Of a stretch of 64,000 nucleotides of DNA, positions 13,353 through 48,915 are shown piece after piece. The notes beneath the pieces were generated by a model. The model had not been told where the DNA came from. It saw only the letters and a list, made by a program, of their open reading frames with translations, and did no database searches. The translations under genes were made by a program, and so were the position numbers. Position 1 is the first letter of the stretch. The number at the start of each line of letters is the position of its first letter. The stretch is from positions 35,545 to 99,544 of the forward strand of contig CACXMA010000011.1 of NCBI GenBank assembly GCA_902768665.1, read 5' to 3'. The DNA is from an uncultured Bacteroidia bacterium. Lineage in GTDB: Bacteria > Bacteroidota > Bacteroidia > Bacteroidales > UBA932.

Positions 13353-15452
13353 TTATTGATATTCGTACGCAAGCACGCGAAGCGCATCTGAACTGCCGCC
13401 GTAGAGGAGTTCCCAGCGACCGTGCTTCGGGACCATGTCACCTTCCGCCTCGGACCAGGCGAGGAAGGTCTCGTCGGTCAAGGGGATTGCAGCTTCGACC
13501 GTTTCGCCAGCCGGGACGGTGACGCGGCAGAAGCCCCGCAGCGTCTTCAGCGGGCCGTCGGTGTCCTCCGGATCGCGGACATAGAGCTGGACGACTTCCG
13601 TGCCGTCGACGGCGCTCTCATTGGTGACCGGAACAATCAGACGGCCGCTCTCAACCCGCGCCTCGCCATAGGTAAACCGGCTGTAACTCAGGCCGAAACC
13701 GAAGGGGAAGAGGGGAGAGCCGCGGAAGTAGCGGTAGGTGCGGCCTTCCATGGCATAATCCTCATAATCCGGAATGTCGGCCGTGTGGCGGTAGAAGGTC
13801 ACGGGGAGCTTTCCGGAAGGATTGACGTCCCCGAAGAGTACGTCGGCGATGGCATGGCCGCCTTCCTCACCGGGGTACCAGGCCTGCAGGATGGCCTCGC
13901 AGGTAAGAGTCTCCGTCTCCAGCCCCATCGCGGAACCAGAGAAATTGACGAGGATCACGCGTTTTCCGGCTGCCTGGAGACGGCGGATCAGGCTGCGCTG
14001 CACGGCGGGAAATTCGATGTCCGTGCGGTCACCGCCGCGGAAGCCGGGCAGGTCGACGGGCATTTCCTCGCCTTCGATCCTCGGGGAGATGCCGCCCGCA
14101 AAAACGACGATGTCGTTGCCGCGAAGGCGCCAAAGGAGGTCATTTTCAAGGCTGTCGACCAGTCCGCAGCCGCGGATGAGAGTAAGGTCCGGAATCCGCT
14201 CCCGCAGCGCGTCTGCCAGCGTAACGGTCTTCTCAGGGATAGGGTTGTAATTGCCCCACTGCATTTCCCGGTCGTCCGCGTTCGGACCGATCAGGGCGAC
14301 GCGGGTCCCGTCCGAGAGCGGCAGGATGCCGTTATTGTGCAGGAGGACAAGGCTTTCTTCGGCCATCTTGCGGGAGAGCGCCAGGTGCTCGGGGCCTTCC
14401 ACGATCTCGTCCGGAAGGGCGTCCCAGTCGCCGCCGTTGCCGTCCAGCTCCCCGAGACGGATCCGCTCGGCAAGAAGACGGATCAGGGCCTTGTCAACGT
14501 CGGCCTCGTCGAGGAGCCCCGCCGCAACGGCCTCGGGGATATGGGCGTAGGTCTCGCCGCAGTTGAGCTCTGTGCCGGTATGGACAGCCGCTGCGGCGGC
14601 GTGCGCGGCATCGGGCAGGACCTTGTGGGTGTTCCAGATGTCCTTGATGGCCCAGCAGTCAGAAACGACGATGCCCTCAAAGCCCCATTCGCCGCGGAGA
14701 ACCGTGTTGATCAGGTAGTCGTTCATGCCGCAGGGCTCGCCGCGGAAGCGGTTGTAGGCGATCATCACTTCCTTGACGCCGGCCTTTGTGACGAGGTCCT
14801 TGAAGGCGGGAAGATAGGTCTCCCGGAGGTCCCGTTCGGAGACCTGCGCATCGAAGGTATGGCGGTTCCATTCGGGGCCCGAGTGGACGGCAAAGTGCTT
14901 GGCGCAGGCGTGCGCCTTGAGAATTTCGGCGTCCTGGGGGCCCTGCAGGCCGCGTACCACGGCCATGCCCATCTGCCCGGTCAGGTAGGGATCCTCTCCA
15001 TAGGTTTCCATGCCCCGGCCCCAGCGCGGATCGCGGAAGATGTTGATGTTCGGCGTCCAGAAGGTCACTCCCTGGTACCAGCCGACATGGCCGGATTCGC
15101 GGGCCTGGCGGTTCTTGACGCGGCCTTCGTCGGAAACGGCGTCAAACACCTGGCCGACCAGCGGCACGTCGAAGGAGGCGGCCATCGCGACGGGCATCGG
15201 GAACACGGTCGCGACACCGTTGCGCGCTACGCCGTGCAGCGCCTCGTTCCACCAGTTGTAGGCGGGAATGCCGAGCTCCTCGACGGGCGCCGAGGGATGC
15301 ATCATCAGCCCGGCCTTCTGCCCGAGGGTCAGCTGCGCAACCAGCTGAGCGGCGCGCTGCTCGGGAGATGGGGCGGCTTTCTCATTGTTTCTGCAGGCGG
15401 AAAGAAGGGAAAGGCCAAGGGCGAGGAGGATAGGGAGTGCTTTCTTCTTCAT
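13353..15452 (-). CDS. GH3 family glycosidase, lipoprotein (beta-xylosidase or beta-glucosidase type)
   Basis: A 699-residue protein with a lipoprotein signal (L-L-S-A-C, lipidated Cys near residue 20). The GH3 N-domain has Y-N-W-W-N-E-A-L-H-G-V-A, P-R-W-G-R-G-M-E-T-Y-G-E-D-P and K-H-F-A-V-H; the nucleophile is D265 in V-S-D-C-W. A C-terminal sandwich and an Fn3-like domain follow. Y-N-W-W-N-E-A-L-H-G-V is common in Bacteroidota enzymes annotated as xylan beta-xylosidases, but beta-glucosidase activity is also found. It lies 12 bases after the GH36 gene in a leftward operon divergent from the AraC regulator, so it most likely removes terminal sugars from the hemicellulose oligosaccharides of this locus. 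Confidence 0.85.
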   Translation of the reverse strand: MKKKALPILLALGLSLLSACRNNEKAAPSPEQRAAQLVAQLTLGQKAGLMMHPSAPVEELGIPAYNWWNEALHGVARNGVATVFPMPVAMAASFDVPLVGQVFDAVSDEGRVKNRQARESGHVGWYQGVTFWTPNINIFRDPRWGRGMETYGEDPYLTGQMGMAVVRGLQGPQDAEILKAHACAKHFAVHSGPEWNRHTFDAQVSERDLRETYLPAFKDLVTKAGVKEVMIAYNRFRGEPCGMNDYLINTVLRGEWGFEGIVVSDCWAIKDIWNTHKVLPDAAHAAAAAVHTGTELNCGETYAHIPEAVAAGLLDEADVDKALIRLLAERIRLGELDGNGGDWDALPDEIVEGPEHLALSRKMAEESLVLLHNNGILPLSDGTRVALIGPNADDREMQWGNYNPIPEKTVTLADALRERIPDLTLIRGCGLVDSLENDLLWRLRGNDIVVFAGGISPRIEGEEMPVDLPGFRGGDRTDIEFPAVQRSLIRRLQAAGKRVILVNFSGSAMGLETETLTCEAILQAWYPGEEGGHAIADVLFGDVNPSGKLPVTFYRHTADIPDYEDYAMEGRTYRYFRGSPLFPFGFGLSYSRFTYGEARVESGRLIVPVTNESAVDGTEVVQLYVRDPEDTDGPLKTLRGFCRVTVPAGETVEAAIPLTDETFLAWSEAEGDMVPKHGRWELLYGGSSDALRVLAYEYQ

Positions 15453-15464
15453 GGGAAAATCGGA

Positions 15465-17723
15465 TTATTCAGCCTCCAGCACGAAGACGGCGGAGCTGTA
15501 AAGGGAGGGAAGAATCGGGTTGAACGCGCCGGAAGCGAGGAAGGAGCCGGACCAGGAGCGGCCGTTGCCCCACCAGCAGGATGCGGTGACGGGAGCGCCG
15601 TCGGGACGGTCCGCATCGCCGAGATTCTGCTCGACGACGCGATACTTGCGGTCCGGATCGAGCCCCTGCAGACGGAACGGTACGCCGTCGCAGGCAAGCT
15701 GGCGGAAGCGGAGGCAGTAGGTATAGACGACGGCCCGGGACTTGTCTTCGGACACATACATCATTCCATAGAAATCATTGCCGTACGGCGTTCCAAGCCG
15801 GTAAAGGTCGCCGTTAAAGACAACATCCCGGAACTCCTTGTAGGAGGCGACGCAGCGGTTGACGTAGGCGAGCTCCTCGGAGGAGAGATAGCGCGGCTGG
15901 AGTTCCAGACCAAGCCGGCCCTGCGCTGCGACGTCGAAGCGGAACTTGAGCGGCGTGACATTGCGGCTCTGGTGGTTCGGGACGGTGCTGACATGGGCGG
16001 CCATGACGCAGGCCGGGTAGAAGAGGGAAGTGCCGTATTGCATGAAGACGCGCTCGAAGCCGTCGGTGTCGTCGGAGGTCCATACCTCATTGAAATACTT
16101 CAGCGAACCGTAGTCGACGCGGCCGCCGCCGGAGGAGCAGCACTGCACGAGGACGGAAGGGTACTTCGCCCGGATCCGCTCCATGACCTTGTAGAAGCCC
16201 TGCACATATTCAATATAGAAACGGTCCTGCTCGGCGCCGAGATAGGGGCTGCCGAAGGATTCGATGGGGCGGTTGCAGTCCCACTTGATGTAGTCGATCG
16301 CGGGGGAGAGCTGCATGACGGAGTCGAAGACGCCGAAGACGAAGTCCTGGACGGCGGGATTCGACAGGTCGAGGACCCACTGCGTGCGCTCGGTATAGAT
16401 CTCGCGGCCGGGGCTCTGGACGACCCATTCGGGATGCTTTTCGGCGAGTTCCGACTTGGGGTTCACCATCTCTGGCTCGATCCAGATACCGAATTTGAGG
16501 CCCTTGGAGTGGGCATACTGCGCAATGTGATCAATGCCCTCAGGGAGCTTGGCGGCATTGACCTGCCAGTCGCCGAGGGCGGCATTGTCGCTGTTTCGCG
16601 GGTACTTGTTGCCGAACCAGCCGTCGTCGAGCACGAACATTTCAAGGCCCATGGACGCGGCATCGTCAATCATGCGGAGCAGGGTCTCGGTCGTGAAGGT
16701 GAAGTAGGCGCCTTCCCAGCTGTTCAGGAGGATGGGGTTGACCTCCCCGCCGCCATAAACGCCGTAGCGCCGCGCCCAGCGGTGGAGGTTGCGGGATGCC
16801 TGTCCGGCGCCCTTGTCGGAATAGGTCCAGATCATGTCCGGGGTCCGGAAGGAAGCGTCGGCTTTCAGCGGATACTCCGATGCGAACGGAGAAATGCCGC
16901 CGAGCACGGTCAGGCGGTTTTCCGCGTCGCGCTCGAAACTCAGGCGCCAGTTGCCGCTCCAGGCGAGCGCTCCGGCAATGACTTCGCCTTCCGTCTCACT
17001 GAGCTCGGAGGTCCCGAGGGAAAGGAGGAACGCGGGATTGCCGAGCTGGGTGTTCTGCACGCCGCGGCGGTCCTCAAGGACCTTGAGATGGTGGGTCAGG
17101 AGCTCGGACTCGACCTGCATCTCCTGCGCCCAGGAACCGTTTACATGGGTGAGCAGGTAACGGTCGCTGGTAAAGGTCATGGCGCCGGAAGCATAGGAAA
17201 GGAGCGTGACGGGCTTGTCGCCGGCATTGTAAATCCGGGTGTGGGTAAGAATGACATCCTCCTCGGGATAGGCCTCATAGACAAGATCGACGCGAAGTTT
17301 CGTGACATAGTCCAGAAGGCGTACGGTCGTGGTCTTGACCCCGGCCGCCTCGGTCGTTTCGTGACCAATATAATGGAGCTCGGTATTGTGCATTCCGTCG
17401 GCATAGCGCAGGTGAAGGGCCGGTTCCCCAAGGAAACGGCCGCCCGTAGCAGGATAGGCGGGGGCGCCGTTGCCATAGCGTCCGGCATAGGAAGGAATCG
17501 CCGCGAACTCTGTTTCGTTTACTTTCGTTCCGAAATGCAATTGAAACACGGAGCCATTCTCCCGGACCGAAAGAATCAGCGAACTGGATGTCGTCTCGAC
17601 AGCAATGATGCGAGGCTCGACAGCCGGCGGAATCAGCGTTCCATGAACGAATTTCTTCGATTTCTGTGCTGAAGCGGTCAGCGCAAGCAGAACGGTCAGA
17701 AAAAGTAGAAGCAGTCTTTTCAT
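15465..17723 (-). CDS. GH36 alpha-galactosidase, secreted
   Basis: A 752-residue enzyme with signal peptide (M-K-R-L-L-L-L-F-L-T-V-L-L-A-L-T-A-S-A). The GH36 barrel is clear: F-V-L-D-D-G-W-F-G-N, then Y-I-K-W-D-C-N-R with nucleophile D near residue 482, S-S-G-G-G-R-V-D-Y-G, and W-T-S-D-D-T-D with the acid/base aspartate. It removes alpha-1,6-galactose from galactomannan or galactosyl oligosaccharides. The frame remains open far upstream across the AraC gene on the other strand, but the signal peptide fixes the start at 17723. It is first in a leftward operon with GH3, sharing a divergent control region with the AraC gene. Confidence 0.9.
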   Translation of the reverse strand: MKRLLLLFLTVLLALTASAQKSKKFVHGTLIPPAVEPRIIAVETTSSSLILSVRENGSVFQLHFGTKVNETEFAAIPSYAGRYGNGAPAYPATGGRFLGEPALHLRYADGMHNTELHYIGHETTEAAGVKTTTVRLLDYVTKLRVDLVYEAYPEEDVILTHTRIYNAGDKPVTLLSYASGAMTFTSDRYLLTHVNGSWAQEMQVESELLTHHLKVLEDRRGVQNTQLGNPAFLLSLGTSELSETEGEVIAGALAWSGNWRLSFERDAENRLTVLGGISPFASEYPLKADASFRTPDMIWTYSDKGAGQASRNLHRWARRYGVYGGGEVNPILLNSWEGAYFTFTTETLLRMIDDAASMGLEMFVLDDGWFGNKYPRNSDNAALGDWQVNAAKLPEGIDHIAQYAHSKGLKFGIWIEPEMVNPKSELAEKHPEWVVQSPGREIYTERTQWVLDLSNPAVQDFVFGVFDSVMQLSPAIDYIKWDCNRPIESFGSPYLGAEQDRFYIEYVQGFYKVMERIRAKYPSVLVQCCSSGGGRVDYGSLKYFNEVWTSDDTDGFERVFMQYGTSLFYPACVMAAHVSTVPNHQSRNVTPLKFRFDVAAQGRLGLELQPRYLSSEELAYVNRCVASYKEFRDVVFNGDLYRLGTPYGNDFYGMMYVSEDKSRAVVYTYCLRFRQLACDGVPFRLQGLDPDRKYRVVEQNLGDADRPDGAPVTASCWWGNGRSWSGSFLASGAFNPILPSLYSSAVFVLEAE

Positions 17724-17837
17724 ATACGTATGTGGTCTTTTGTCTGCAAGATAATGAAATCCGTCGAAAAGGCAAAACGGGAGCAAAATTCTACTAAAAT
17801 TAATAAAAATTGTATAATTATGCTTATCTTTGCCCCT
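17724..17837. promoter_or_regulatory. Divergent control region between the GH36 operon and the AraC gene
   Basis: About 114 bp separate the two starts. On the minus strand TTTG and, 19 bp further, TATCTTGC (one base short of consensus) could serve the GH36-GH3 operon. On the plus strand the AraC gene has its own -7 box. An AraC dimer site is expected here by analogy, but I could not identify the direct repeat. Confidence 0.45.
17825..17832 (+). promoter_or_regulatory. -7 box of the AraC regulator gene
   Basis: TATCTTTG matches TAnnTTTG and ends five bases before the ATG at 17838. Transcription would begin at or next to the start codon, implying a leaderless or near-leaderless mRNA. Confidence 0.5.
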
Positions 17838-18719
17838 ATGAGAAAGTATCTGAGGGAAATAACGCGGCTTTCGCCGAAGGACTGCCTCTATATCGTGGAG
17901 AGGCACAAGAGCGAATTCAACTATCCCATCCACAGCCACGACGACTTCGAACTGAACTTCATCCAGAACGGAAAGGGAGTGCGGCGCATTGTCGGAGACA
18001 GTGTGGAAGTGATTGGAGACTACGAACTTACCATGGTCGTCGGAGCAGGTCTCGTCCACGCCTGGGAGCAGGGCAGCTGCACGGAGCCCGACGTGCGGGA
18101 GATCACCATCCAGTTCTCGCAGGATCTGTTTCTCGGCAATATCCTGGACCGCCACCAGTTCGACTCCATCCGGACGATGTTCGAGCGGGCGACGCAGGGG
18201 GTGACCTTCTCCCTTCAGGCCATCATGCGCGTCTACTCGATTCTCGATTCGCTGGCGACAATGAACGATCCTTTCGAGCAGTTCCTGAGTTTCATGAAGA
18301 TGCTCTACATCCTTTCCGGCGATACCGGGGCGCGCACGCTCTCGTCCTCTTCCTTTGCCGAGGCGGAATACACCGGCACCGACAGCCGGCGCATCCGAAA
18401 GGTGCGGGAGCACATCGACAAGCATTATGCCGAGGACCTTCGCCTGGACGACGTCGCAGCCATTGCAGGCATGTCGCCGTCGGCTTTCAGCCGCTTTTTC
18501 AAGCAGCACACGGACCGCAATTTCGTTGACTATCTGATCGATACGCGCCTTGGCAACGCCGCACGCATGCTGGTGGACACGACGACCGGCATTTCCGAGA
18601 TCTGCTACGCCTGCGGATTCAACAATCTGTCTAACTTCAACCGCACCTTCAAGGCGCGCCGGGGTTATACCCCGAGGGACTTCCGAGCTGTGTTCAAACG
18701 GAACCGGATTGTCGTATAG
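17838..18719 (+). CDS. AraC family transcriptional regulator of the hemicellulose locus
   Basis: A 293-residue regulator. The first 150 residues are a cupin-like sensing domain (H-S-H-D-D-F-E-L-N-F-I near residue 30), and the last 100 are a two-part AraC HTH: L-D-D-V-A-A-I-A-G-M-S-P-S-A-F-S-R-F-F-K, then I-S-E-I-C-Y-A-C-G-F-N-N-L-S-N-F-N-R and the closing G-Y-T-P-R-D-F-R. It is one-component and has no membrane segment, unlike the hybrid two-component regulators common in Bacteroides polysaccharide loci. It sits between the leftward GH36-GH3 pair and the rightward operon, so it probably answers to a hemicellulose sugar or oligosaccharide and controls both. A longer reading frame starts upstream, but it crosses the -7 box. 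Confidence 0.9.
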   Translation: MRKYLREITRLSPKDCLYIVERHKSEFNYPIHSHDDFELNFIQNGKGVRRIVGDSVEVIGDYELTMVVGAGLVHAWEQGSCTEPDVREITIQFSQDLFLGNILDRHQFDSIRTMFERATQGVTFSLQAIMRVYSILDSLATMNDPFEQFLSFMKMLYILSGDTGARTLSSSSFAEAEYTGTDSRRIRKVREHIDKHYAEDLRLDDVAAIAGMSPSAFSRFFKQHTDRNFVDYLIDTRLGNAARMLVDTTTGISEICYACGFNNLSNFNRTFKARRGYTPRDFRAVFKRNRIVV

Positions 18720-18774
18720 CAAAAAAGTATCATTATTCGATAATTATTTGTTAGACGACGCCGCGAAAATGATT

Positions 18775-18782
18775 TAACTTTG
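18775..18782 (+). promoter_or_regulatory. -7 box at the head of the large hemicellulose operon
   Basis: TAACTTTG matches TAnnTTTG and precedes the first gene by 44 bases. A TTTG at 18747-18750 is 24 bp upstream, longer than the usual 19-21, which would suit an activator-dependent promoter. Confidence 0.5.
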
Positions 18783-18804
18783 CACATCCCCTCACCGGGA
18801 TGTG
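18783..18804 (+). other. 5'-end stem-loop of the hemicellulose operon leader
   Basis: CACATCCC and GGGATGTG form a perfect 8-bp stem with the loop CTCACC, starting at the base after the -7 box. The expected transcription start falls within the left arm, so it could be a 5' stabilising hairpin or, as DNA, an inverted-repeat binding site. Confidence 0.5.
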
Positions 18805-18826
18805 TATTTTTTATGTTGGCCACATA

Positions 18827-20137
18827 ATGAATCTGACACGAAACCTGCTGCTTCTGGGCACGATCTGCGTCCTCGCAGCTTCTTCATGTTCAAAGAAGGC
18901 GGATAGTCCGGCTTCTCCCTTTGTGACTGTCCAGGACGGTCATTTTGTCCGTAACGGACAGCCCTACAAATACATCGGCACCAATTTCTGGTATGGCCCC
19001 ATCCTCGCTTCCGAGGGCAGGGGAGGCGACTACGACCGCCTTTGCCGGGAACTGGATACGCTGAAGGCGCTCGGGCTTACCAACCTTCGCGTCCTTGCCG
19101 GCGCCGACGGTGCCGACGGCGTGTTCTCCCGCGTGGAACCGACGCTGCAGACCGCTCCGGGCGTATACAATGATACCCTGCTGGTCGGTCTCGACCGCTT
19201 CCTCGTGGAGCTCGGCAAGCGCGACATGCAGGCGGTCCTGTATGTCAACAACTCCTGGGAATGGTCCGGCGGATACGGTCAGTACCTCGAGTGGGCGACA
19301 GGGGAGAAAGCCCTGATTCCGCTGGTTGACGGCTATTGGCCCTTCATGCAGCAGATGCGAAAGTTCCAGCATTCCGATGCTGCGCAGCAGCTGTATTTCA
19401 ATCATTTACGGACCCTCGTCGGCAGGACGAATTCCCTCACCGGAAAGCCCTACTGCGAGGATCCCGCCATTTTTGCCTGGCAGATAGGCAACGAGCCCCG
19501 CTGCTTCTCCGGCGGCGGCGACCTCGATGCCCAGTCCCAGCAGAGCATCCGCGAGGGATTCCTCGCCTGGATGACCGAGGCGGCCGGGATCATCAGGGAG
19601 ATCGACCCGAACCACCTCATCAGCACCGGCAACGAAGGTCTGATGGGCTGCGAACAGGATACGCTCCTGCTTCGCCAGGTCAACGAAATCCCCGGCATCG
19701 ACTACATGACGATCCATATCTGGCCCTACAACTGGAGCTGGGCCGCCGCGGATTCCCTGGTCGAAGACCTCCCCGTGGCCATTGAGAACACAAGCGCCTA
19801 TCTCCGGCTGCATCGAAGGCTCGCGGACGAGCTCGGGATGCCCGTTGTCGCGGAGGAATTCGGTTTCCCGCGTGACGGCTTCTCTCCGGATATGAGCGCG
19901 ACGACAAAGGCCCGCGATTCCTATTATAATTATATATTCTCCACGGTCGGAACGATTCTCGACGGAGCGAACTTCTGGGGCTGGAGCGGCCTGGCCGTGC
20001 CGAACCACGTGCAGTGGGAGAGCGGCGACCCCTACACCGGCGACCCGGCGCAGGAGGCCCAGGGGCTCAACGGCGTTTACGTCTCGGACAGCACGATGGC
20101 AATCATCAAACAATCTATAACTAATCTTTATTATTAA
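18827..20137 (+). CDS. GH5 endo-beta-mannanase (GH5_7-like), lipoprotein
   Basis: A 436-residue enzyme with a lipoprotein signal (A-A-S-S-C near residue 22). The barrel begins F-V-R-N-G-Q-P-Y-K-Y-I-G-T-N-F-W-Y-G, typical of GH5 subfamily 7 mannanases. The acid/base is E223 in Q-I-G-N-E-P-R and the nucleophile is E344 in A-E-E-F-G-F; the W-E-W-S-G-G-Y segment is also characteristic. It cuts beta-1,4-mannan internally, probably on the cell surface. It is the first gene of the operon, ahead of susC by 19 bases, an unusual position because susCD usually leads. The ATG at 18827 matches the signal peptide. Confidence 0.85.
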   Translation: MNLTRNLLLLGTICVLAASSCSKKADSPASPFVTVQDGHFVRNGQPYKYIGTNFWYGPILASEGRGGDYDRLCRELDTLKALGLTNLRVLAGADGADGVFSRVEPTLQTAPGVYNDTLLVGLDRFLVELGKRDMQAVLYVNNSWEWSGGYGQYLEWATGEKALIPLVDGYWPFMQQMRKFQHSDAAQQLYFNHLRTLVGRTNSLTGKPYCEDPAIFAWQIGNEPRCFSGGGDLDAQSQQSIREGFLAWMTEAAGIIREIDPNHLISTGNEGLMGCEQDTLLLRQVNEIPGIDYMTIHIWPYNWSWAAADSLVEDLPVAIENTSAYLRLHRRLADELGMPVVAEEFGFPRDGFSPDMSATTKARDSYYNYIFSTVGTILDGANFWGWSGLAVPNHVQWESGDPYTGDPAQEAQGLNGVYVSDSTMAIIKQSITNLYY

Positions 20138-20156
20138 CCCATTAAACAACAGTAGC

Positions 20157-23100: not shown

Positions 23101-23405
23101 GCGCCACGACCGGTGACCCGAACGACAACGACCGCCTCAGCGACCGTTACATCGAAGACGGCTCCTATCTCCGCGTCAAGAACATCACCCTCGGTTACAC
23201 CTTCCCGAAGCAGCTCCTCCAGAAGGTCCGTATCGAGAATCTCCGCGTGCAGGTCAATATCCAGAACCTGCTGACCTTCACCAAGTACACGGGCTACGAC
23301 CCGGAAATCGGTGCAAGTACCGCTTCCGTCAACGTCATGGGCCTGGATAACGGCCGTTATCCGTCCCCGACCGTCTATTCTCTCGGTGTCAACGTCACAT
23401 TCTAA
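20157..23405 (+). CDS. susC: SusC/RagA family TonB-linked outer membrane transporter
   Basis: A 1082-residue porin. After a signal peptide (about residues 1-21) comes the CarboxypepD_reg-like domain (V-T-G-R-V-V-D-Q-N-G-E-G-V), the V-V-V-G-Y-G-T junction, the plug (Q-S-L-Q-G-R-A-A-G-V, S-I-R-V-R-G, Y-V-I-D-G) and the barrel, closing with V-Y-S-L-G-V-N-V-T-F. It takes up oligosaccharides across the outer membrane with energy from TonB. With SusD it forms a lidded transporter. Codon use in this gene is visibly restricted (GGT/GGC, CCG, CGC, GTC), consistent with high expression. It is the only susC in the window, so oligosaccharides from both mannan and xyloglucan-type enzymes would depend on it. 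Confidence 0.95.
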   Translation: MKQKLVSFMLAILATTALFAQNKTVTGRVVDQNGEGVISASVMEKGTANGTVTDLDGNYSISVRPGATLEFSSIGYATQEVVVGAQSVINVTLNEDTTFLDEVVVVGYGTMKKSDLAGASVSMKEDAIKGSIITNIDQSLQGRAAGVTAVQTSGAPGSSSSIRVRGQATINANAEPLYVIDGVIMQGGGSSGADFGLGDALGNGAVSTVSPLSTINPSDIVSMEILKDASATAIYGAQGANGVVLITTKRGKAGDAKFTYDGMVALQRQTKRIDLLNLREFAEYYNELASVGMVSENEYYSDPSLLGKGTNWQDAIFRTALQHQHQISAQGGTDKVQYYVSGSWMDQEGTIIGSEFKRFSVRANLDAQLKKWWKIGLSVAYSSTDENMKLADSDEGIIGYSLTSLPSAPIYDQDGNYYNLSMKNYSIINPVAMAMLEEILLKREKLNGNIFSDITFLPGLTWHAELDYDVSYSKANTFNPSVSLGSYQRAANETRSQKNNSLYWAVKNYLTWNKSIGKHSFTAMAGQEAWESSWDYMSVYNTALPSNDVVNPYLGTGTPTIGYGFGSSAMASFFTRETYNYDNRYIGTYTFRYDGSSNFGPEKRWAPFHSFALAWRFTNEPFYPAGLKNVLNDGKLRFGWGQTGNSGIGSYKWGASMTKVATGLGTGYRQSNLPNPNIMWEKQEQINVGLDLNFFNNRLNLIAEWYKKTSNDMLMPLQLPSYMGTQGNGSSALAAPWGNYGKIENTGFEFTLNAHPVETKNFHWMTEGQISFNKNKLKALAGTASAAIVGYGQWNDIVSVSNIGESLYSFYGYVTDGIYQSIEEVMAGPVMESMKNTTVDAEGIAHPSQNPADYNQYNTTWVGDIRYKDLNGDGMITEADRTNIGSPMPKFTFGWTNTFTYKNWDLSVFINGSYGNKVLNYLNMRIGNMKSAWANQPTSVLDRSRLVAIDSEKTYDGTNGVWNWFEDPTNVAIENSGSKIPRATTGDPNDNDRLSDRYIEDGSYLRVKNITLGYTFPKQLLQKVRIENLRVQVNIQNLLTFTKYTGYDPEIGASTASVNVMGLDNGRYPSPTVYSLGVNVTF

Positions 23406-23423
23406 TCAAGGGAGGATACGAAC

Positions 23424-25172: not shown

Positions 25173-25190
25173 TCCTTAGCACACACTCAG

Positions 25191-26510: not shown

Positions 26511-26523
26511 TTGAATCACGAAA

Positions 26524-28893: not shown

Positions 28894-28906
28894 ACCTACT
28901 ATCAAT

Positions 28907-33387: not shown

Positions 33388-33390
33388 GCC

Positions 33391-34503: not shown

Positions 34504-34506
34504 GAG

Positions 34507-37188: not shown

Positions 37189-37194
37189 GAAAGC

Positions 37195-41491: not shown

Positions 41492-41506
41492 TCAATACTT
41501 CTTTAT

Positions 41507-43837
41507 ATGCGTTTCATTTTCAAAGTGTCCAGTATGATTCTCGGTGCTGCGGCGATTGCCTCCTGCGGCAACAGTGAAAAACAGGCCGGTACCCCTGCCA
41601 TCCCGCGGGATGAGGCCGTCGAGGCAAAAGTGGAGGAGGTCCTCTCCGGCATGAGCCTCAAGGAAAAGGCCGGCCAGCTGGTCCAGCTCAACATCTCCGT
41701 TCTCGAAGACGGGACCCACGAAGCCATCGATCCGGCGAAGCTCGACTACATCATCGGCGAGCAGAAGGTCGGTTCCATCCTCAATGTGATGCACGACCGC
41801 GCGCATTCCCGCGAGGAGACGGCCGCGATGATCCGCCAGATTCAGGAGAAGTCCATGGAAACGATCGGCATCCCGTGTATTTACGGCCTTGACATGATCC
41901 ACGGCGCGACCTACCTCACGGACGGTTCCTTCTTCCCGCAGGAGATCAATATCGCCGCGACGTTCAACCGCGAATATGCCCGCATGATGGGCGAGGCGAT
42001 GGCCTATGAAACCCGCGCCGCCCAGTGCCCGTGGGTGTTCTCACCGGTGATGGATCTCGGCCGCGACTCGCGCTGGCCGCGCCACTGGGAGAGCTACGGC
42101 GAGGATCCCTATCTCCAGGCAGAGCTCGCCCGCGTCGAGACCCTCGCCATCCAGGGAGAGGACCCGAACCATATCGATGACGAGCACTGCGCCGTTTCCC
42201 TCAAGCATTACATGGGCTACGGTGTCCCTGTCAGCGGCAAGGACCGCACCCCGGCCATCATCGCCGAAAACGACCTGCGTGAGAAATTCTTCCGCCCGTT
42301 CCTCGACTGCTTCCGTGCCGGCGCCCTGACCGCCATGGTCAATTCCGCCTCCATCAACGGCGTTCCGACCCATGCCAACAAGACCCTTCTCACGGGATGG
42401 GTCAAGGAGGATCTCGGCTGGGACGGCCTTTTCGTGACCGACTGGGCCGACATCGACAATTTCTTCGTCCGCGACCATGTCGCCGCCGATAAGAAGGAGG
42501 CCGTCGCCCTCGGTATCAATGCCGGCATCGACATGATCATGGACCCGTACGATCCCTCCTGCGTGGACGTCATCGTGGAATGCGTGAACGACGGCCTCAT
42601 CAGCGCCGAGCGCCTGGATGACGCCGTCCGCCGCGTTCTCCGCCTGAAGGTCCGGCTGGGCCTGTTCGACAGCCCGGTCGTGGAGAAAGACTATGCCGAT
42701 TTCGCTTCTGAGCGCTTTGCCAACGACTCCTATGCCGCCGCCGTCGAATCGGAAGTCCTGCTGAAGAACGAGGGCAATATCCTGCCGCTGAAGGGCACGG
42801 AGCGCATCTTTGTCTGCGGCCCGAACGCCAACTCCCTCCGCGCCCTGAACGGCGGCTGGAGCTACCGCTGGCAGGGTGCCGCCGACGAGTTTGCCCCTCA
42901 GTACAACACCATCCTGGAGGCCCTGAAGGAGCGTTTCCGCAGCGTCTCCTATGAGCCCGGCGTGGTCTATGAGGAGGGGGACTGGCAGAAGGACAACGGT
43001 GCCGGCATCCCGCGTGCCGTCGCCGCCGCCCGCGCTGCGGATGTCATCATCGCCTGCGTCGGTGAGAATTCCTACTGCGAGACCCCCGGAAACATCGACG
43101 ATCTCGCGCTTTCCGCCAACCAGCGGAATCTTGTCAAGGAACTCGCCAAGACGGGTAAGCCGATCATCCTCGTGCTGAACGAAGGCCGTCCGCGCCTCAT
43201 CGGTGACATCGAGCCGCTGGCCAAGGCCGTTATCGATATCATGCTCCCGTCCAACTACGGCGGAGACGCCCTTGCGGCGCTTCTGCTGGGCTACGAGAAC
43301 TTCTCCGGCCGTCTGCCCTTTACCTATTCCAAGCACGCCCACGCCCTGCATACCTATGATTACAAGGTATCCGAGCACCGCGAGACCATGGAAGGCTCCT
43401 ACAACTACGACGCCGTCATGGATGTCCAGTGGCCCTTCGGCCATGGCCTGAGCTATACGCAGTTCGCCTACAGCGACCTCCTGCTCGAGAGCGCGGCCGA
43501 CTTCAAGGCGGATGACGTGCTGAAACTCTCCGTGAAGGTGACCAATACCGGCGAGCGTGCCGGCAAGGAGGCCGTGCTGCTGTTCAGCTCCGACCTTGTC
43601 GCCAGCATCATTCCGGACGTCAAGCGTCTTCGCGGCTTCGAGAAGATTGAGCTGGAACCCGGCGCCTCCCAGGTAGTCCGCTTCGAGATCCCGGCCGAGG
43701 AACTGGCCTTTGTCGGTGCCGACGGCAAGTGGCGCCTCGAAAAGGGCGAATTCCGCCTCGCCGTGGGCGGCCTGAGCACAATGGTTAACTGCACCGAGAC
43801 CAAAGTCTGGGACGAGCCGAACATTCCGCTGCGATGA
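41507..43837 (+). CDS. GH3 beta-glucosidase, lipoprotein
   Basis: A 776-residue lipoprotein (A-I-A-S-C, Cys about 20). GH3 features: G-Q-L-V-Q-L-N, Y-G-L-D-M-I-H-G-A-T-Y, D-S-R-W-P-R-H-W-E-S-Y-G-E-D-P, K-H-Y-M-G-Y and nucleophile D312 in V-T-D-W-A. A C-terminal sandwich with acid/base region and an Fn3-like domain follow. The G-x-D-x-I-H-G pattern is common in beta-glucosidases that release glucose from glucan, xyloglucan or glucomannan oligosaccharides. It is distinct from the leftward GH3 at 13353-15452. Its stop overlaps the epimerase start (ATGA). Confidence 0.85.
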   Translation: MRFIFKVSSMILGAAAIASCGNSEKQAGTPAIPRDEAVEAKVEEVLSGMSLKEKAGQLVQLNISVLEDGTHEAIDPAKLDYIIGEQKVGSILNVMHDRAHSREETAAMIRQIQEKSMETIGIPCIYGLDMIHGATYLTDGSFFPQEINIAATFNREYARMMGEAMAYETRAAQCPWVFSPVMDLGRDSRWPRHWESYGEDPYLQAELARVETLAIQGEDPNHIDDEHCAVSLKHYMGYGVPVSGKDRTPAIIAENDLREKFFRPFLDCFRAGALTAMVNSASINGVPTHANKTLLTGWVKEDLGWDGLFVTDWADIDNFFVRDHVAADKKEAVALGINAGIDMIMDPYDPSCVDVIVECVNDGLISAERLDDAVRRVLRLKVRLGLFDSPVVEKDYADFASERFANDSYAAAVESEVLLKNEGNILPLKGTERIFVCGPNANSLRALNGGWSYRWQGAADEFAPQYNTILEALKERFRSVSYEPGVVYEEGDWQKDNGAGIPRAVAAARAADVIIACVGENSYCETPGNIDDLALSANQRNLVKELAKTGKPIILVLNEGRPRLIGDIEPLAKAVIDIMLPSNYGGDALAALLLGYENFSGRLPFTYSKHAHALHTYDYKVSEHRETMEGSYNYDAVMDVQWPFGHGLSYTQFAYSDLLLESAADFKADDVLKLSVKVTNTGERAGKEAVLLFSSDLVASIIPDVKRLRGFEKIELEPGASQVVRFEIPAEELAFVGADGKWRLEKGEFRLAVGGLSTMVNCTETKVWDEPNIPLR

Positions 43838-45012
43838 AACCCAACCGTACCGATATCCTGCTGGCGGAGGTTCGTTCCTGTCTGGAACAGAACATCCTGC
43901 CTTATTGGCTCACCCTGGCGGACCCGAAAGGGGGCTTCCAGGGTGAAGTGCTCGCCGACGGGACCGTCCTTCCGGATGCGCCCCGCGGTGCGATCCTGAA
44001 CGCCCGTATCATCTGGGCTTTTTCCGCGGCCTACGCCGCGCTCCACAAGTCGGAGTACCTCGTCGCTGCGATGCATGCCAAGGATTGGTTTATCAAGCAC
44101 TTCTGCGACCATAAGCACGGCGGCGTCTACTGGAGCGTCGGCCCCGACGGGAGCCGTCTCGACGACAAGGCCCAGCTCTATGCCCAGGGCTTTGCCATCT
44201 ACGGTCTGAGTGAGTTCTACAAGGTCACCCGCGACGACCAGGCCCTGAAGGCCGCCGTGAACATTTTCCGCATCGTGGAGAAGTACTTCCACGACGCTGA
44301 AAACGGCGGTTATATCGAGGCGCTGTCGCGCGATTTTTCGCCGCTGGAGGACATGTCCCTCAGCGCCCACGACATCAATGCCGACAAGACGATGAATTCG
44401 CACCTGCACATCCTCGAGGCGTATGCGAACCTGTACAAGGTCTGGCCCGTCCCCGAGCTGCGCGAACGGATCTGCGAGCTGCTGGACATTGTCGGAACGA
44501 AAGTAATGGGGCCTGACGGGCACCTGCAGCTGTATTTCCGGCGCGACTGGAGCGTGATTCCCGGGGCCGTTTCGTATGGTCACGACATCGAGACGTCCTG
44601 GCTGGCGCTGGAGTGCGCCATGGCGATCGGCGATATCGATGCCGTGACGCGCGTGCGTCCCTGGGCCCGCAGGATGGGGGAGGCCGGCAATGAAGGCCTG
44701 CTTCCCGATGGTTCGATGCGCTATGAGAAACTATTGGACGGGACCTTCGACGATTCCCGCCAGTGGTGGGTCGAGGCCGAGGCGGTCGTGGGCAATTTCT
44801 GGCTCTGGAAGTACCACGGCGACGCGGCGGCGGCAGACAGGGCCTTCACGCTCTGGGACTGGATCCGGGACCATCTTCTCCGCGCCGACGGCGAGTGGCA
44901 GTGGGCCATCCTCCCCGACGGCAGGCCCGACCCGTCCCAGCCCAAGGCCGGTTTCTGGAAATGCCCCTACCACAACACACGCATGTGCCTGGAAATCCTG
45001 AAGCTGCTTTAG
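43834..45012 (+). CDS. AGE-family 2-epimerase (mannobiose/cellobiose epimerase type)
   Basis: A 392-residue cytoplasmic (alpha/alpha)6-barrel protein of the N-acylglucosamine 2-epimerase superfamily. Visible landmarks include G-G-V-Y-W-S-V, A-Q-L-Y-A-Q-G-F-A-I-Y, H-L-H-I-L-E-A-Y and Y-G-H-D-I-E-T-S-W-L, with histidines in the positions used by cellobiose 2-epimerases. In mannan loci the enzyme turns beta-1,4-mannobiose into mannosyl-glucose, the substrate of GH130 subfamily 1. It is the last gene of the operon, coupled to GH3 and followed by a terminator. The presence of GH130 favours mannobiose over cellobiose. Confidence 0.9.
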   Translation: MKPNRTDILLAEVRSCLEQNILPYWLTLADPKGGFQGEVLADGTVLPDAPRGAILNARIIWAFSAAYAALHKSEYLVAAMHAKDWFIKHFCDHKHGGVYWSVGPDGSRLDDKAQLYAQGFAIYGLSEFYKVTRDDQALKAAVNIFRIVEKYFHDAENGGYIEALSRDFSPLEDMSLSAHDINADKTMNSHLHILEAYANLYKVWPVPELRERICELLDIVGTKVMGPDGHLQLYFRRDWSVIPGAVSYGHDIETSWLALECAMAIGDIDAVTRVRPWARRMGEAGNEGLLPDGSMRYEKLLDGTFDDSRQWWVEAEAVVGNFWLWKYHGDAAAADRAFTLWDWIRDHLLRADGEWQWAILPDGRPDPSQPKAGFWKCPYHNTRMCLEILKLL

Positions 45013-45018
45013 CCTCAC

Positions 45019-45051
45019 GTCACCCCACGGCTTGTCCGTGGGGTCTTTTTA
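45019..45051 (+). terminator. Terminator of the hemicellulose operon, built from a dispersed element
   Basis: CCCCACGG, CTTGT, CCGTGGGG form a strong 8-bp stem followed by TCTTTTTA. The whole unit, GTCA to GTCT, is closely similar to the palindromic repeat at 37162-37188, so a repeat copy seems to serve as the terminator. Confidence 0.75.
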
Positions 45052-45075
45052 TGTCCTCCGGTGCTTCGGAGGGCA
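45052..45075. repeat. Repeat copy with a CCTCCG/CGGAGG hairpin
   Basis: CCTCCG and CGGAGG form a 6-bp stem around GTGCTT. The same 24-bp unit, with a few changes, occurs inverted at 49824-49847, and in both places it adjoins a TCCGTGG half-element. Confidence 0.65.
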
Positions 45076-45131: not shown

Positions 45132-45162
45132 TTGTGAAAAATCGTTATTAGTTGTATATTTG
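45132..45162 (+). promoter_or_regulatory. Promoter of the serpin-GH2 unit
   Basis: TTG at 45132-45134 and TATATTTG at 45155-45162 with 20 bp between them match the Bacteroidota promoter. The leader is about 15 bases. Confidence 0.65.
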
Positions 45163-45183: not shown

Positions 45184-46500
45184 ATGAAACGCTATATTCT
45201 ATTGCTGCTGACCGGACTGGCCGTGACGCTGTCCTGCAACGACAAGGTGGGGACGGAAGAGGGTGACGGAGCCGAGGTGAAAGATCCGATTACGATGGAG
45301 TTCCCGACGCCGACGACACGGCTGTGGTCGGTGGAGCTGACGGATCAGCAGAAGGGCTTTGTCCGGGCCGGGAATGATATGGCCTTCCGGCTGATGGGAC
45401 AGATGTACGAAGGGAAGAGCATAATTCTGTCGCCGCTGAGTCTGGAAATGGCGCTGGCGATGTGTGCCAACGGCGCTTCGGGCGAGACGCTCGCCGAGAT
45501 GGTGGAGTTCCTCGGATTCGGCGACGATGTCGATGCGCTCAACGCCTTCTGCAAGACGCTGCTCGAGCAGCTGCCGGCGGTGGATCTGGATGTCAAGCTG
45601 AAGCTGACGGACGCGCTGCTGGTGCGGGAGGATATGAAACTCCTGCCATCCTATCGGCAGACCGTTGAGAATCATTATTATGCCGCGGTGGAGAACTGCT
45701 CTTTCGCGGATCCGGCCGCTGTCGCCGCGCGGGTCAACGAATGGGCCTCGCGGAGCACGGACGGATTTATCAAGGATGTCCTGAGCGCCCGTGACATCAC
45801 GCCCCAGACGGTGGCCCTGATCATGAACGCGCTCTATTTCAAGGCCAGCTGGGCGGAGAATACGGAGTTCGGTCCGCAGTTTTCTGACGCAGGGGCTGAG
45901 GATTCCCGTTTCACGCTCGCCAACGGGCAGGAAAAGCAGCTGCCGACGATGGTGGATGTGGATTGGTTCCGCTATATCGACGAGGACGAGTATTTCGGTG
46001 TCCAGATTCCCTATAACGATGGAAAGTTCTGCATGTACCTGCTGATGCCGGTCGAAAAGGATGTCGAGTGGATGCTTGACGAGCTTGAAAAAACATCCTG
46101 GAGCGGCATGCAGGCCAAGTTCCGGGGCGATGCGGAGGTTTATCTCTGGATGCCGAAATTCCAGGTCGAGGACCGCTACGAGCTGAACGACGCACTCAAG
46201 GCGCTTGGGCTCGAGAAGGCCTTCCAAGCGGGCGAGGCGCAGTTTGACCGGATGTTCGACGTCAATCAGGACCTGATGGACTTCTATATCGGAAAGGTCA
46301 TCCAGAAAGCCCGCATCTCCGTCGACGAGTGGGGGACCGAGGCCGCTGCCGTCACGGTTGTCGGCATGGAGGCGACCTCTCCCGGGCCCGGTGAAGAGCC
46401 GAAGCGGGTCTATCTCCATTTTGCCCGTCCTTTTGTATTCCTGATCGCTGAACGCACTTCCGGCACGATTCTCTTCGAAGGAGTCTATACCGGTGAATAA
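45184..46500 (+). CDS. Serpin family protease inhibitor, lipoprotein
   Basis: A 438-residue serpin with a lipoprotein signal (V-T-L-S-C-N-D, Cys about 18). Serpin features: N-x-x-S-P-L-S-type segment (I-I-L-S-P-L-S), N-A-L-Y-F-K-A-S-W, and a reactive loop hinge W-G-T-E-A-A-A-V-T, whose small residues indicate an inhibitory serpin; R-P-F-V-F-L-I closes the loop. Counting from the hinge puts P1 near A-T-S, so an elastase-like target is possible, but the loop is longer than in human serpins and this is uncertain. It lies between the hemicellulose operon and GH2 under its own promoter. A GTG at 45178 could also start it. Confidence 0.9.
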   Translation: MKRYILLLLTGLAVTLSCNDKVGTEEGDGAEVKDPITMEFPTPTTRLWSVELTDQQKGFVRAGNDMAFRLMGQMYEGKSIILSPLSLEMALAMCANGASGETLAEMVEFLGFGDDVDALNAFCKTLLEQLPAVDLDVKLKLTDALLVREDMKLLPSYRQTVENHYYAAVENCSFADPAAVAARVNEWASRSTDGFIKDVLSARDITPQTVALIMNALYFKASWAENTEFGPQFSDAGAEDSRFTLANGQEKQLPTMVDVDWFRYIDEDEYFGVQIPYNDGKFCMYLLMPVEKDVEWMLDELEKTSWSGMQAKFRGDAEVYLWMPKFQVEDRYELNDALKALGLEKAFQAGEAQFDRMFDVNQDLMDFYIGKVIQKARISVDEWGTEAAAVTVVGMEATSPGPGEEPKRVYLHFARPFVFLIAERTSGTILFEGVYTGE

Positions 46501-46518
46501 CTGCATCATTTGCCAGCC

Positions 46519-48915
46519 ATGAAACGTCTTTCGTCCCGACCGGCCATCCTCCTTCTGGTCGCCCTGCTGTTTTGTACCCTGTCCGCGCCGGCGCAGAAGG
46601 TCACCCGGCTTGCTGAAGGATGGCGGTTTTCACTGGGAAATGCGTCCGATCCGGCAAAGGATTTCGGGCGTGGGACGGAGTACTTCAACTATCTGACCAA
46701 AGCCGCTTCGATCCACAATGAGGGGCCGTACGTGCTGCGCTTCGATGACAGCGCGTGGACCCCGGTCCGCGTGCCGCACGACTGGGCGGCGGCGCTTCCG
46801 TATGATTCGCTCGCAAGCCACTCGCATGGCTATAAGACCGTCGGATGGAAGTATCCCGGGACTAGCGTGGGGTGGTACCGGCTGCGGCTTCCGGGTAGCG
46901 GTTTTCAGGAAGGCCGCCATTATGAACTCCGTTTCGACGGTATTTTCCGCGACGCCGAGGTCTGGTTCAACGGAGTGTGGCTCGGGCGCGAACCGAGCGG
47001 CTATGCCGTGCAGGTGTTCGATATTACGCCGTACCTCGATTTCGGCGGCGAGAATCTCCTTTGCGTGCGGGCGGATGCGACCTTCGAGGAAGGGTGGTTC
47101 TATGAGGGTGCCGGCATCTACCGGCCTGTCTGGCTGCTCGAAAAGGGACCTGTCCATGTGACCGAGGGCGGTGTCCGGACGAGCTGGGAGCCGGACGATC
47201 TGACCGTCGCGGTGGAAGTGCGGAATACCGGTGCCGCCGCAAGCACCGATGTCCGGCTGCGGCTGCTGGATGCGGAAGGAAAAGAAGTATCGGCCGGGAC
47301 GATTCCATGCCGGCTGCGGGCAGGGGAGACGGTGACGGTGTATGGTACCCTTCGGCTGGAGGGCCCCCGGCGCTGGGATATCGCCGATCCCTATCTGTAT
47401 ACGCTGGAGACGCACATCGGCGCGGGTGTTTACCGCACGACCGTCGGCATTCGCGAGATTGCCTTCAATGCGACGGACGGCTTCCTGCTGAACGGCCGGA
47501 AGGTCACGCTTAGGGGTGTCAACCTCCACCAGGACCATGCCGGTGTCGGCTCGGCCATGCCTGCCGGCCTGATCGAATGGCGCCTTCGCGAGCTGATGAA
47601 ATACGGCGTCAATGCCATCCGCTGCAGCCACAATCCCGCGAGCCCGCAGCTGCTGGAGATCTGCGACCGCCTCGGCGTCCTGGTCATCGACGAGAACCGC
47701 CTCATGGGCATGAGTGATTATCACAAAAGCCAGCTGGAGAACATGGTGCGCTTCGGCGCGCAGCATCCCAGCGTCATCCTCTGGAGCGTCGGCAACGAGG
47801 AATGGGGGCTTGAGAACGATCCCCGCGGCGTCGGCATTGTCCGTCAGATGCAGGATTATGTCCATCTGCTGGATCCGACCCGCCAGACCATGGCCGCCAA
47901 TGCCGGGGGAGCGACACTTGTAGCGGGACTTGATGTGAAGGGATATAATTACATCATCCAGAATGATGTGGAGAACCGGCACCGGGAGCATCCTGACTGG
48001 ATCGTCGTCGGCTCGGAGGAGACCACCGGCTGCGGTACCCGCGGCGTCTATGTCCCCGAGCCGGGGAGGATGGTATCGCTCAGCCGCACGGAGGAGCCGG
48101 AGAATGTCATCGAACGCGGCTGGAAGTATTATGCCGACAATCCCTGGACGGCCGGCGTCTTTTTCTGGACCGGCCTGGACTACCGCGGCGAGCCCAATCC
48201 GCTGAAATACCCCGCCGTCGGCTCGGAATTCGGCCTGCTGGATTATTGCGGCTTCCCCAAGGACGAGGCCTTCTACCTCAAGGCCTGGTGGACGGATGAG
48301 CCTGTGCTGCACGTGTTTCCGCACTGGAATCCGTCGGTCGTTCCGGGCGCGTCCACTGTCATTTCGAGCACTCCCGATGTCATTTCGAGCGAAGTCGAGA
48401 AATCTATCGACGTCTGGGTCTACGCCAATTGCGACGAAGTGGAACTGCGCCTGAACGGCCGCTCCCTCGGGCGCAAAGCCATGCCCCGCAACGGCCATCT
48501 CGTCTGGGAGGATGTCCGCTATGCTCCCGGCAAACTGGTCGCAACCGGTTTCGTGGCAGGCCGCCGCATCTCCCGCGAAGTGCTGGAAACCACCGGTCCG
48601 GCCGTAACTGCGGCCTTGTCGGCGGATGTGATTCCTTCCGACGACGGCGAGTCGCTCGCGGTCATTACCATCCGCCTCGTGGACGCCCGCGGCCGCTTCG
48701 TCCCCGATGCCCGTAACGCGCTGCGCTTCAACTGGTCCGGCCCCGGCCGTATCCTCGGCGGCGGCAACGGCGACCCCGCCTGGCTCGGCATCGATGTCGC
48801 CTCCGACCCTGCCGCTTTCCAGCTCCCCGCCTTCAATGGCCTAGCCCAGCTTCTCATCGAAATCCCGGCCTCAGCAACCTTCGACCTCGCCGCCTTATCC
48901 GTCACGCTGGACTGA
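46519..48915 (+). CDS. GH2 beta-galactosidase-like enzyme, secreted
   Basis: A 798-residue enzyme with signal peptide (S-S-R-P-A-I-L-L-L-V-A-L-L-F, cleavage about residue 26). GH2 domains are in order: sugar-binding sandwich (V-P-H-D-W), Ig-like, and barrel with G-V-N-L-H-Q-D-H. The acid/base is in V-G-N-E-E-W (E427/E428) and the nucleophile is probably E500 or E501 in G-S-E-E-T-T-G. A GH2 galactosidase removes galactose from xyloglucan side chains in the B. ovatus locus. In the C-terminal linker, residues 614-629 include V-I-S-S and V-I-S-S-E-V-E-K-S, which are translations of the dispersed repeat. It follows the serpin by 18 bases. Confidence 0.8.
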   Translation: MKRLSSRPAILLLVALLFCTLSAPAQKVTRLAEGWRFSLGNASDPAKDFGRGTEYFNYLTKAASIHNEGPYVLRFDDSAWTPVRVPHDWAAALPYDSLASHSHGYKTVGWKYPGTSVGWYRLRLPGSGFQEGRHYELRFDGIFRDAEVWFNGVWLGREPSGYAVQVFDITPYLDFGGENLLCVRADATFEEGWFYEGAGIYRPVWLLEKGPVHVTEGGVRTSWEPDDLTVAVEVRNTGAAASTDVRLRLLDAEGKEVSAGTIPCRLRAGETVTVYGTLRLEGPRRWDIADPYLYTLETHIGAGVYRTTVGIREIAFNATDGFLLNGRKVTLRGVNLHQDHAGVGSAMPAGLIEWRLRELMKYGVNAIRCSHNPASPQLLEICDRLGVLVIDENRLMGMSDYHKSQLENMVRFGAQHPSVILWSVGNEEWGLENDPRGVGIVRQMQDYVHLLDPTRQTMAANAGGATLVAGLDVKGYNYIIQNDVENRHREHPDWIVVGSEETTGCGTRGVYVPEPGRMVSLSRTEEPENVIERGWKYYADNPWTAGVFFWTGLDYRGEPNPLKYPAVGSEFGLLDYCGFPKDEAFYLKAWWTDEPVLHVFPHWNPSVVPGASTVISSTPDVISSEVEKSIDVWVYANCDEVELRLNGRSLGRKAMPRNGHLVWEDVRYAPGKLVATGFVAGRRISREVLETTGPAVTAALSADVIPSDDGESLAVITIRLVDARGRFVPDARNALRFNWSGPGRILGGGNGDPAWLGIDVASDPAAFQLPAFNGLAQLLIEIPASATFDLAALSVTLD
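48358..48405 (+). repeat. Dispersed element inserted in-frame in the GH2 gene
   Basis: A half copy, GTCATTTCGAGC (48358-48369), is followed by a full 27-bp copy at 48379-48405 that encodes V-I-S-S-E-V-E-K-S. The full copy is identical to the intergenic copy at 49003-49029. Both lie in frame with the gene. Confidence 0.85.

Follow-up and report, generated by a model that had tools for sequence, protein, structure and literature searches.

A 64,000-nucleotide stretch of DNA (hereafter the window) from an uncultured Bacteroidia bacterium of the Bacteroidales lineage UBA932 contains, at positions 13353–48915, a composite polysaccharide utilization locus (PUL) in which predicted heteromannan and xyloglucan utilization genes lie together. 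The source genome is represented by 26 contigs with a total length of 2.03 Mb and is 88% complete. The locus encodes 13 carbohydrate-active enzymes, one 2-epimerase, one AraC-family regulator, one SusC/SusD pair, and two further surface binding proteins; genes were called by Pfam/NCBIfam profiles and by the nearest matches among solved structures (PDB), and the adjacent SusC (TIGR04056, 930 bits) and SusD (PF07980 and PF14322) genes identify it as a Sus-like PUL. It begins with the divergent GH36 and GH3 genes and the AraC regulator, followed on the plus strand by GH5_7, SusC, SusD, the surface glycan-binding protein SGBP-B, an IPT/TIG protein, BACON-GH26, two BACON-GH5_4 enzymes, GH26, GH130, a SASA-type esterase, GH43, GH31, GH3, the 2-epimerase, a serpin, and GH2. 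Genes of different types flank it (upstream, DUF6794 and DUF1846; downstream, an acetokinase-like gene, an aminotransferase, and a 2-oxoacid oxidoreductase), and the locus boundaries therefore look right; a small DUF6794 open reading frame (ORF; 12961–13299, minus strand) lies just beyond the edge. A preliminary description of this DNA had listed one AraC regulator, one SusCD pair, two surface binders, and at least 12 enzymes, all of which were recovered in place, and its reading of them as a composite heteromannan and xyloglucan locus behind one SusCD pair is supported by the present analysis.

The mannan side of the locus is real, as judged from homology and predicted fold. The GH26 mannanase, 2-epimerase, and GH130_1 genes of heteromannan loci are all present, namely a lipoprotein-type BACON-GH26 mannanase (28942–30336; PF02156, E 5.9e-54, and BACON), a second GH26 that is probably a periplasmic manno-oligosaccharide hydrolase (33391–34503; PF02156, E 4.7e-33), a GH130_1 enzyme of the mannosylglucose phosphorylase type (34507–35658; 3was, 671 bits), and an AGE-family mannobiose/cellobiose 2-epimerase (43834–45012; PF07221; NF041848 281 bits, under the cut-off of 800), with a signal peptide seen in neither of the last two. 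The GH5_7 lipoprotein (18827–20137) has no Pfam match above cut-off; its AlphaFold model (pTM 0.87; best PDB matches 7odj and 1uuq) has an exo-mannosidase fold and matches the Cellvibrio mixtus exo-mannosidase 7odj with 40% identity and TM-scores of 0.87/0.93, and the enzyme is thus probably exo-acting, as is postulated for the GH5_7 of Segatella copri in the available part of its description (PMC12704710). The minus strand carries the GH36 α-galactosidase (15465–17723; Melibiase, E 1.8e-118) and a GH3 lipoprotein (13353–15452; Pfam GH3 N, C, and Fn3); the mechanical ORF of the former (15465–18722) is over-long, its part beyond the likely start at 17723 being antisense to the AraC gene. The mannan set named in the preliminary description (two GH26, GH5_7, GH36, esterase, epimerase, and GH130_1) is present, with GH5_7 now read as probably exo-acting and the esterase as CE20-like. 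Among the genes of 13353–48915, Pfam reported no inner-membrane disaccharide transporter of the PREV32 style; an MFS gene is located at 61126–62448, outside the locus.

The SASA acetylesterase (35655–37163; PF03629) has as its best PDB match 7kmm, the founding CE20 enzyme (E 2.5e-60, in two stretches). It comprises 502 residues versus 636 in that enzyme and apparently lacks the X448 insert. The founding enzyme deacetylates xyloglucan oligosaccharides and, according to the available part of its description, also many O-acetylated sugars, and the esterase may for that reason serve either glycan.

The xyloglucan side is also real, as judged from sequence similarity, with GH31, GH43, and the GH3 at 41507 nearest to enzymes of the Bacteroides ovatus xyloglucan locus. 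The closest solved structures are BoGH43A (5jow, 541 bits) for the GH43 α-L-arabinofuranosidase (37195–38727, with 37195 as the likely start, the mechanical ORF being over-long), BoGH31A (5jou, 1025 bits) for the GH31 α-xylosidase (38711–41491), and BoGH3B (5jp0, 947 bits) for the GH3 β-glucosidase (41507–43837); all three belong to that one B. ovatus locus, as given in the available part of its description (PMC4967831). The PA14 domain that the preliminary description had placed in GH31 is not reported by Pfam, although the match to BoGH31A runs as one unbroken stretch over residues 40–925, across the segment given for the PA14 domain of BoGH31 (residues 214–362; PMC4967831, available part). 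With the GalA-like GH2 β-galactosidase (46510–48915; NF041462 809 bits, under the cut-off of 900), the GH31 (PA14 by alignment), GH3, GH43, and GH2 set of the B. ovatus type is complete. The two BACON-GH5_4 enzymes, both of which had been taken as xyloglucan-type, fared differently. The second (GH5_4b, 31888–33387) is nearest to PbGH5A of P. bryantii, which the title of a cited reference names a mixed-linkage glucanase/xyloglucanase, and it is the only clear xyloglucanase candidate in the locus. The first (GH5_4a, 30340–31878) is about equally near 6wqy and AC2aCel5A, an enzyme that prefers linear glucans and for which the available part of the literature gives trace activity on xyloglucan; it also occurs in relatives' loci that lack the xyloglucan module, and it is counted here with the mannan core. 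We also considered GH5_4a as a narrow-cleft cellulase and set this aside, the signs being mixed: it lacks a 6-residue insert of AC2aCel5A and shares with that enzyme another segment that is absent in XG5.

The importer and surface binding proteins are encoded next to each other by SusC (20157–23405), SusD (23424–25172), SGBP-B (25191–26510), and a tandem IPT/TIG gene (26524–28893). SGBP-B carries the XBD domain (PF18329, E 1.2e-41), and its residues W232, W264, W274, W316, W367, and W379 are invariant in a 30-row alignment that includes merged and unmerged loci. The IPT/TIG protein is probably a further surface binder; the best matches of its predicted model include the B. ovatus SGBP-B structures 6e57 and 5e7g, with low TM-scores. 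Loci that lack the xyloglucan module also have this lineage of SusC, SusD, and SGBP-B, a distribution that suggests reuse of a mannan-type importer for both glycans. For the same reason, the claim of the preliminary description that the transporter and binders must accept both kinds of oligosaccharide was too strong.

The run from GH5_7 to the epimerase covers 26 kb with intergenic gaps between −17 and 48 bp. These small gaps are the best evidence for one transcription unit, and the run is probably transcribed as one. Within it, the xyloglucan genes are nested between two genes for linked steps in mannan breakdown, GH130 and the epimerase. The AraC regulator (17838–18719, with the ORF open from 17730 and a likely start at 17838; HTH_18, E 3e-22) adjoins the main operon and is a candidate sensor for its co-regulation. 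Ahead of GH5_7 lies a Bacteroidetes-type −7 element, TAACTTTG (18775–18782), immediately preceded by a GTATCATT..GATAATTA motif. The window holds 19 elements of the TANNTTTG type, which we take to be the Bacteroidetes −7 element, and none of them, on either strand, falls within 18783–45154, the flanking ones being at 18775 and 45155. The strongest plus-strand terminator-like hairpin in 25100–45060 directly follows the epimerase (45022–45044, 9 pairs and a T tract), and the next −7-type element, TATATTTG (45155–45162), precedes the serpin and GH2 genes, which look like a separate second unit. At 18781–18806, another terminator-like hairpin with a T tract shares positions with the −7 element of the main operon and might terminate AraC transcription or have a role in the leader.

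We compared the gene order in 147 stretches (the window, 31 SGBP-B loci, and 35 + 80 GH31 loci), defining a composite, or merged, locus as one in which GH130 precedes GH31 on the same strand at a distance below 7 kb. The merged layout recurs in 49 distinct loci (52 before three duplicate contigs were removed), a count that does not measure prevalence since the stretches were chosen for SGBP-B or GH31. The 49 loci contain GH3 (44), the epimerase downstream (36), the esterase (35), GH2 (24), xylulokinase (13), and GH43 (5); in the 13 without the epimerase, the stretch stops at most 9.0 kb past GH31, about at or before the expected epimerase start. The mannan core of the relatives consists of AraC, GH5_7, SusC, SusD, SGBP-B, IPT, and GH26, often GH5_4a, then GH26 and GH130, with or without the cassette, and the records of many relatives name ruminant samples. 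Across 299 family genomes (own genome included), SGBP-B homologs occur in 52, full-type GH31 in 61, GH130 in 70, and both of the latter in 52, leaving nine with GH31 and no GH130; 12 of 73 genomes had been dropped from the GH31 count because their match was mainly C-terminal at lower identity or in pieces. In the 52 genomes with both genes, GH31 and GH130 are within 12 kb in 25 (including the window's own genome and G275 and G286, which have a different gene order), farther apart on one contig in two, and on different contigs in 25.

Some cassettes also carry genes for xylose catabolism. In G034, an FGGY kinase, a xylose-isomerase-like protein, and a sugar transporter are encoded between GH2 and GH3. 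A xylulokinase-type gene is found in the cassettes of 13 of the 49 composite loci, in 12 of them (G034 included) with the isomerase and the sugar transporter, and alone in L182, at a contig end. The trio also occurs in G241, for which no GH130 was found, in G206, whose GH130 is on a separate contig, and next to GH31 in three unmerged cases (G288, L206, and L207). The window has no xylose genes, and its own genome encodes xylose isomerase on contig 7 (82%). The presence of xylose genes in cassettes supports the prediction that xylose is released and used by such systems.

Several other features were compared along the same loci. Among the 40 stretches with GH5_7, a CE7 gene adjoins GH5_7 in none of 24 composite and in 13 of 16 other stretches, whereas a CE20-like esterase (>50% identity) occurs in 19 of the 24 and in none of the 16, one of the latter (G242) being composite but split across two contigs. 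We rejected this esterase swap as strong evidence of remodelling, since, by the SusC tree, a difference is seen in only about 2 of 4 independent pairs, each time in this direction, which is below significance. GH5_7 and GH26 apparently form one long ORF in G034 (L127, 15507–17756, minus strand) and, by ORF length, in six more composite loci; the GH5_7 ORF is long also in 11 unmerged mannan loci, with CE7 beside or within it. An operator motif was found in 22 of 34 AraC gaps (13 of the 18 in composite loci, 9 of the 15 in other loci, and 0 of 1 before SusC) versus 3.8 in mononucleotide shuffles, and we did not count it as evidence because the pattern was picked after the sequences had been viewed.

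The GH31 phylogeny points to a common origin of the merged layout. In a tree of 81 GH31 rows (80 GTDB contigs and the window), all 32 merged rows fall in one clade of 35 (starred), together with two rows in which GH31 stands alone and one with no assigned state, and the merged label changes 4 times versus a shuffled mean of 25.5. Because the merged GH31 genes share one clade, the merger appears to be old and kept, and the simplest account is a single main merger with some later losses. In the SusC phylogeny (31 rows, 14 of them scored as merged, including G275 and G286), the label changes 4 times versus a shuffled mean of 10.5; the merged rows do not form a single group there, and the group that holds the window also has the unmerged sisters G248 and G245. 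This importer lineage is thus not confined to merged loci.

In its enzyme content, the locus resembles the B. ovatus xyloglucan locus BoXyGUL, with which it shares the SGBP-B family, BACON GH5_4, GH31 with PA14, GH43, and GH3; SusCD, GH2, and BACON are also part of BoXyGUL. To our knowledge, BoXyGUL lacks a mannan pathway, whereas here the xyloglucan enzymes sit inside a mannan operon whose importer lineage is found in mannan loci. On the mannan side, PREV32 (PMC6784887) and S. copri PUL 7 (PMC12704710) share SusCD, GH26s, GH130, and mannobiose 2-epimerase with the locus, as well as GH5s in PREV32 and GH5_7 in S. copri PUL 8, the neighbor of PUL 7; unlike the locus, they have CE7, and PREV32 also a GPH transporter, and the available parts of the two papers name no GH31/GH43/GH3 cassette. 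The statement that mannan and xyloglucan systems usually form separate loci fits B. ovatus but is less apt for S. copri, in which the glucomannan and core xyloglucan PULs are neighbors with separate SusCDs and GH31/GH2 lie elsewhere (PMC12704710, available part). In Xylanibacter ruminicola, according to the available part of PMC11107044, responses to mannans and xyloglucan overlap, and the KHP1 PUL ‘unk_1’ is strongly induced by gluco- and galactomannan; its authors set this PUL apart from usual mannan loci and, in that part, describe no nested two-glycan operon. The AC2a cellulose locus of an uncultured rumen Bacteroidetes is related through AC2aCel5A, one of the two nearest solved relatives of GH5_4a, and differs in being tied to linear β-glucans and cello-oligosaccharides in the available parts of its descriptions (PMC4488959, PMC13188876). 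In one open-access literature collection, covered mostly as titles and abstract openings, we found no PUL in which a mannan operon with a single SusCD encloses a xyloglucan cassette. Each half is well known, and the nested cassette is what is new.

We consider it fairly probable that the locus is a two-hemicellulose operon for acetylated (β-)galactoglucomannan and xyloglucan, with one AraC regulator and one importer, that arose by cassette insertion. Such an AraC-controlled operon would dismantle two branched β-1,4-hemicelluloses from one plant wall. The predicted surface lipoproteins (SusD, SGBP-B, the IPT protein, BACON-GH26, and the two BACON-GH5_4) would bind the polymers and cut them to oligosaccharides, and the single SusC would take in fragments of both glycans. 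In the periplasm, GH36, GH26, and the exo-mannosidase GH5_7 would trim the mannan fragments, and GH43, GH31, and GH3 would break down those of xyloglucan. The GH2 β-galactosidase, the CE20-like esterase, and GH3 could be used on both glycans, since both can bear β-1,2-galactose tips, acetyl groups, and backbone glucose. In the cytoplasm, the epimerase and GH130 would finish mannobiose or mannosylglucose as mannose 1-phosphate. As for its origin, a mannan operon would have gained a xyloglucan cassette around GH31 and GH3, inserted between its GH130 and epimerase genes, and would have retained it since. In the available parts of its descriptions, β-galactoglucomannan (β-GGM) has an alternating Glc-Man backbone with β-Gal-α-Gal branches and is related to xyloglucan in structure and function (PMC9614514, PMC9900609); this kinship offers a natural reason for the pairing and for the shared GH2, esterase, and GH3. 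Softwood-type walls had been given as an example of a target; the arabinofuranosidase, β-galactosidase, and acetylesterase fit eudicot primary walls better.

The strongest alternative, which we regard as unlikely, is that SusCD, SGBP-B, and the surface enzymes handle (gluco)mannan only, that GH31, GH43, and GH3 are co-regulated periplasmic helpers, and that xyloglucan oligosaccharides enter through another SusCD of the genome. The surface machinery may indeed be mannan-specific, because the nearest solved relative of SGBP-B is PbSGBP-B (6d2y, E 3.8e-132), which appears to belong to the mannan PUL of S. bryantii B14, characterized in a thesis cited in the available part of PMC11784079. The same alternative would account for the occurrence of the SusCD/SGBP-B lineage in loci without GH31, and S. 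copri provides a precedent in a co-regulated GH31/GH2 cluster whose listed genes include no SusCD. It also draws on relatives: seven merged operons (L126, L127, L129, L132, L134, L135, and L141) start with AraC and have no mannan-type SusCD inside, most of them with a different SusC match (30–40%) upstream on the opposite strand. The stand-alone GH31 stretches of G245, G248, G292, G285, G079, G263, G266, and G014 have no SusC match. The window's own genome has 12 SusD-like matches, 11 of them outside the locus, and three of these other places have a GH31-family gene within 10 kb, a distant one with at most 29% identity or no match to the locus GH31. Against a separate route, the only GH31 of the full α-xylosidase type found in the genome is that of the locus; no close GH31 or GH5_4 was found in the other own-genome stretches, which cover 10 of the 11 other SusD matches, no GH5_4-like match in 14 own-genome stretches that include both other GH5 places, and no GH9 in the genome. 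The GH5_4 nearest to a glucanase/xyloglucanase is itself inside the operon, and the 88%-complete genome yielded no second such locus.

Other observations also weigh against the two-hemicellulose operon. A full-type GH31 is located on another contig in both unmerged sisters, G245 and G248, and their importer might serve xyloglucan too. In none of the other merged loci tabulated is GH5_4b the best GH5_4 match; a GH5_4b-like enzyme is encoded 36–38 kb away on the same contig in G269 and G293. The trees were made by FastTree only, and L203, with GH130 9.2 kb from GH31, is outside the starred clade. With respect to the single transcript, about four TANNTTTG elements would be expected in 18783–45154 on both strands, so that zero is only suggestive, and all 10 composite relatives measured have 1–5 of them inside (14–28 kb, from GH5_7 to the epimerase or GH31). 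Sigma-70-like elements number 5 versus a shuffled mean of 4.9 in 25100–45060 and 8 versus 3.3 in 13200–25100, and weaker terminator-like hairpins 22 versus 14.8 and 12 versus 9.1, respectively. Finally, in 27 of the 52 genomes having both GH31 and GH130, the two lie more than 12 kb apart or on different contigs, although some of these cases (e.g., G206) look like contig breaks. This last count is what speaks for chance neighbors, that is, unrelated gene sets adjoined by rearrangement or assembly without a functional link; the repetition of this gene order across 49 distinct loci of different assemblies, the single GH31 clade, and the overlapping or nearly abutting genes make this explanation the least credible of all. 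A single-substrate locus in which all enzymes serve β-GGM is also very improbable, given that the BoGH31A-type α-xylosidase and the BoGH43A-type arabinofuranosidase would have no substrate in β-GGM and that cassettes of related genomes include xylose genes.

The serpin gene (45184–46500; PF00079, E 7.2e-82), which was not mentioned in the preliminary description, encodes a protein with a lipoprotein-type N-terminus and a hinge, GTEAAAVTVV, that aligns with conserpin and has the small residues of the inhibitory type, by which inhibition is predicted. Protection of surface enzymes by the serpin is a guess. We did not retain it as a core part of the locus, since it has its own promoter-like element after the terminator-like hairpin and no serpin match occurs in the relatives' stretches tabulated. 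Serpin homologs are present in 155 of 299 family genomes, and the neighbors of related serpins are mostly of other or unassigned kinds in the few loci checked (a script covered 4 of 9). A second serpin on contig 6 of the own genome (99071–100396, L114; 48% identity) abuts a GH43/glucuronyl-esterase gene.

A further, tentative proposal is that β-GGM and xyloglucan are treated as one food: AraC would sense a fragment of only one of them, likeliest a mannan-derived disaccharide, and would induce both sets of enzymes together with a single promiscuous SusCD that serves the two glycans. If true, this one-food operon would mirror the plant pairing of both hemicelluloses in eudicot primary walls. The usual working rule assigns one SusCD system to each glycan, and a recurrent two-hemicellulose operon allows direct tests of whether two backbones can share an importer and of whether the signal of one glycan is used to anticipate another, with 49 natural variants on hand and the unmerged relatives as controls. 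For PUL annotation, it is a warning that a single substrate per locus cannot always be assigned. The locus also offers a plausible match, on the bacterial side, to the β-GGM/xyloglucan pairing that has lately been described in plant walls.

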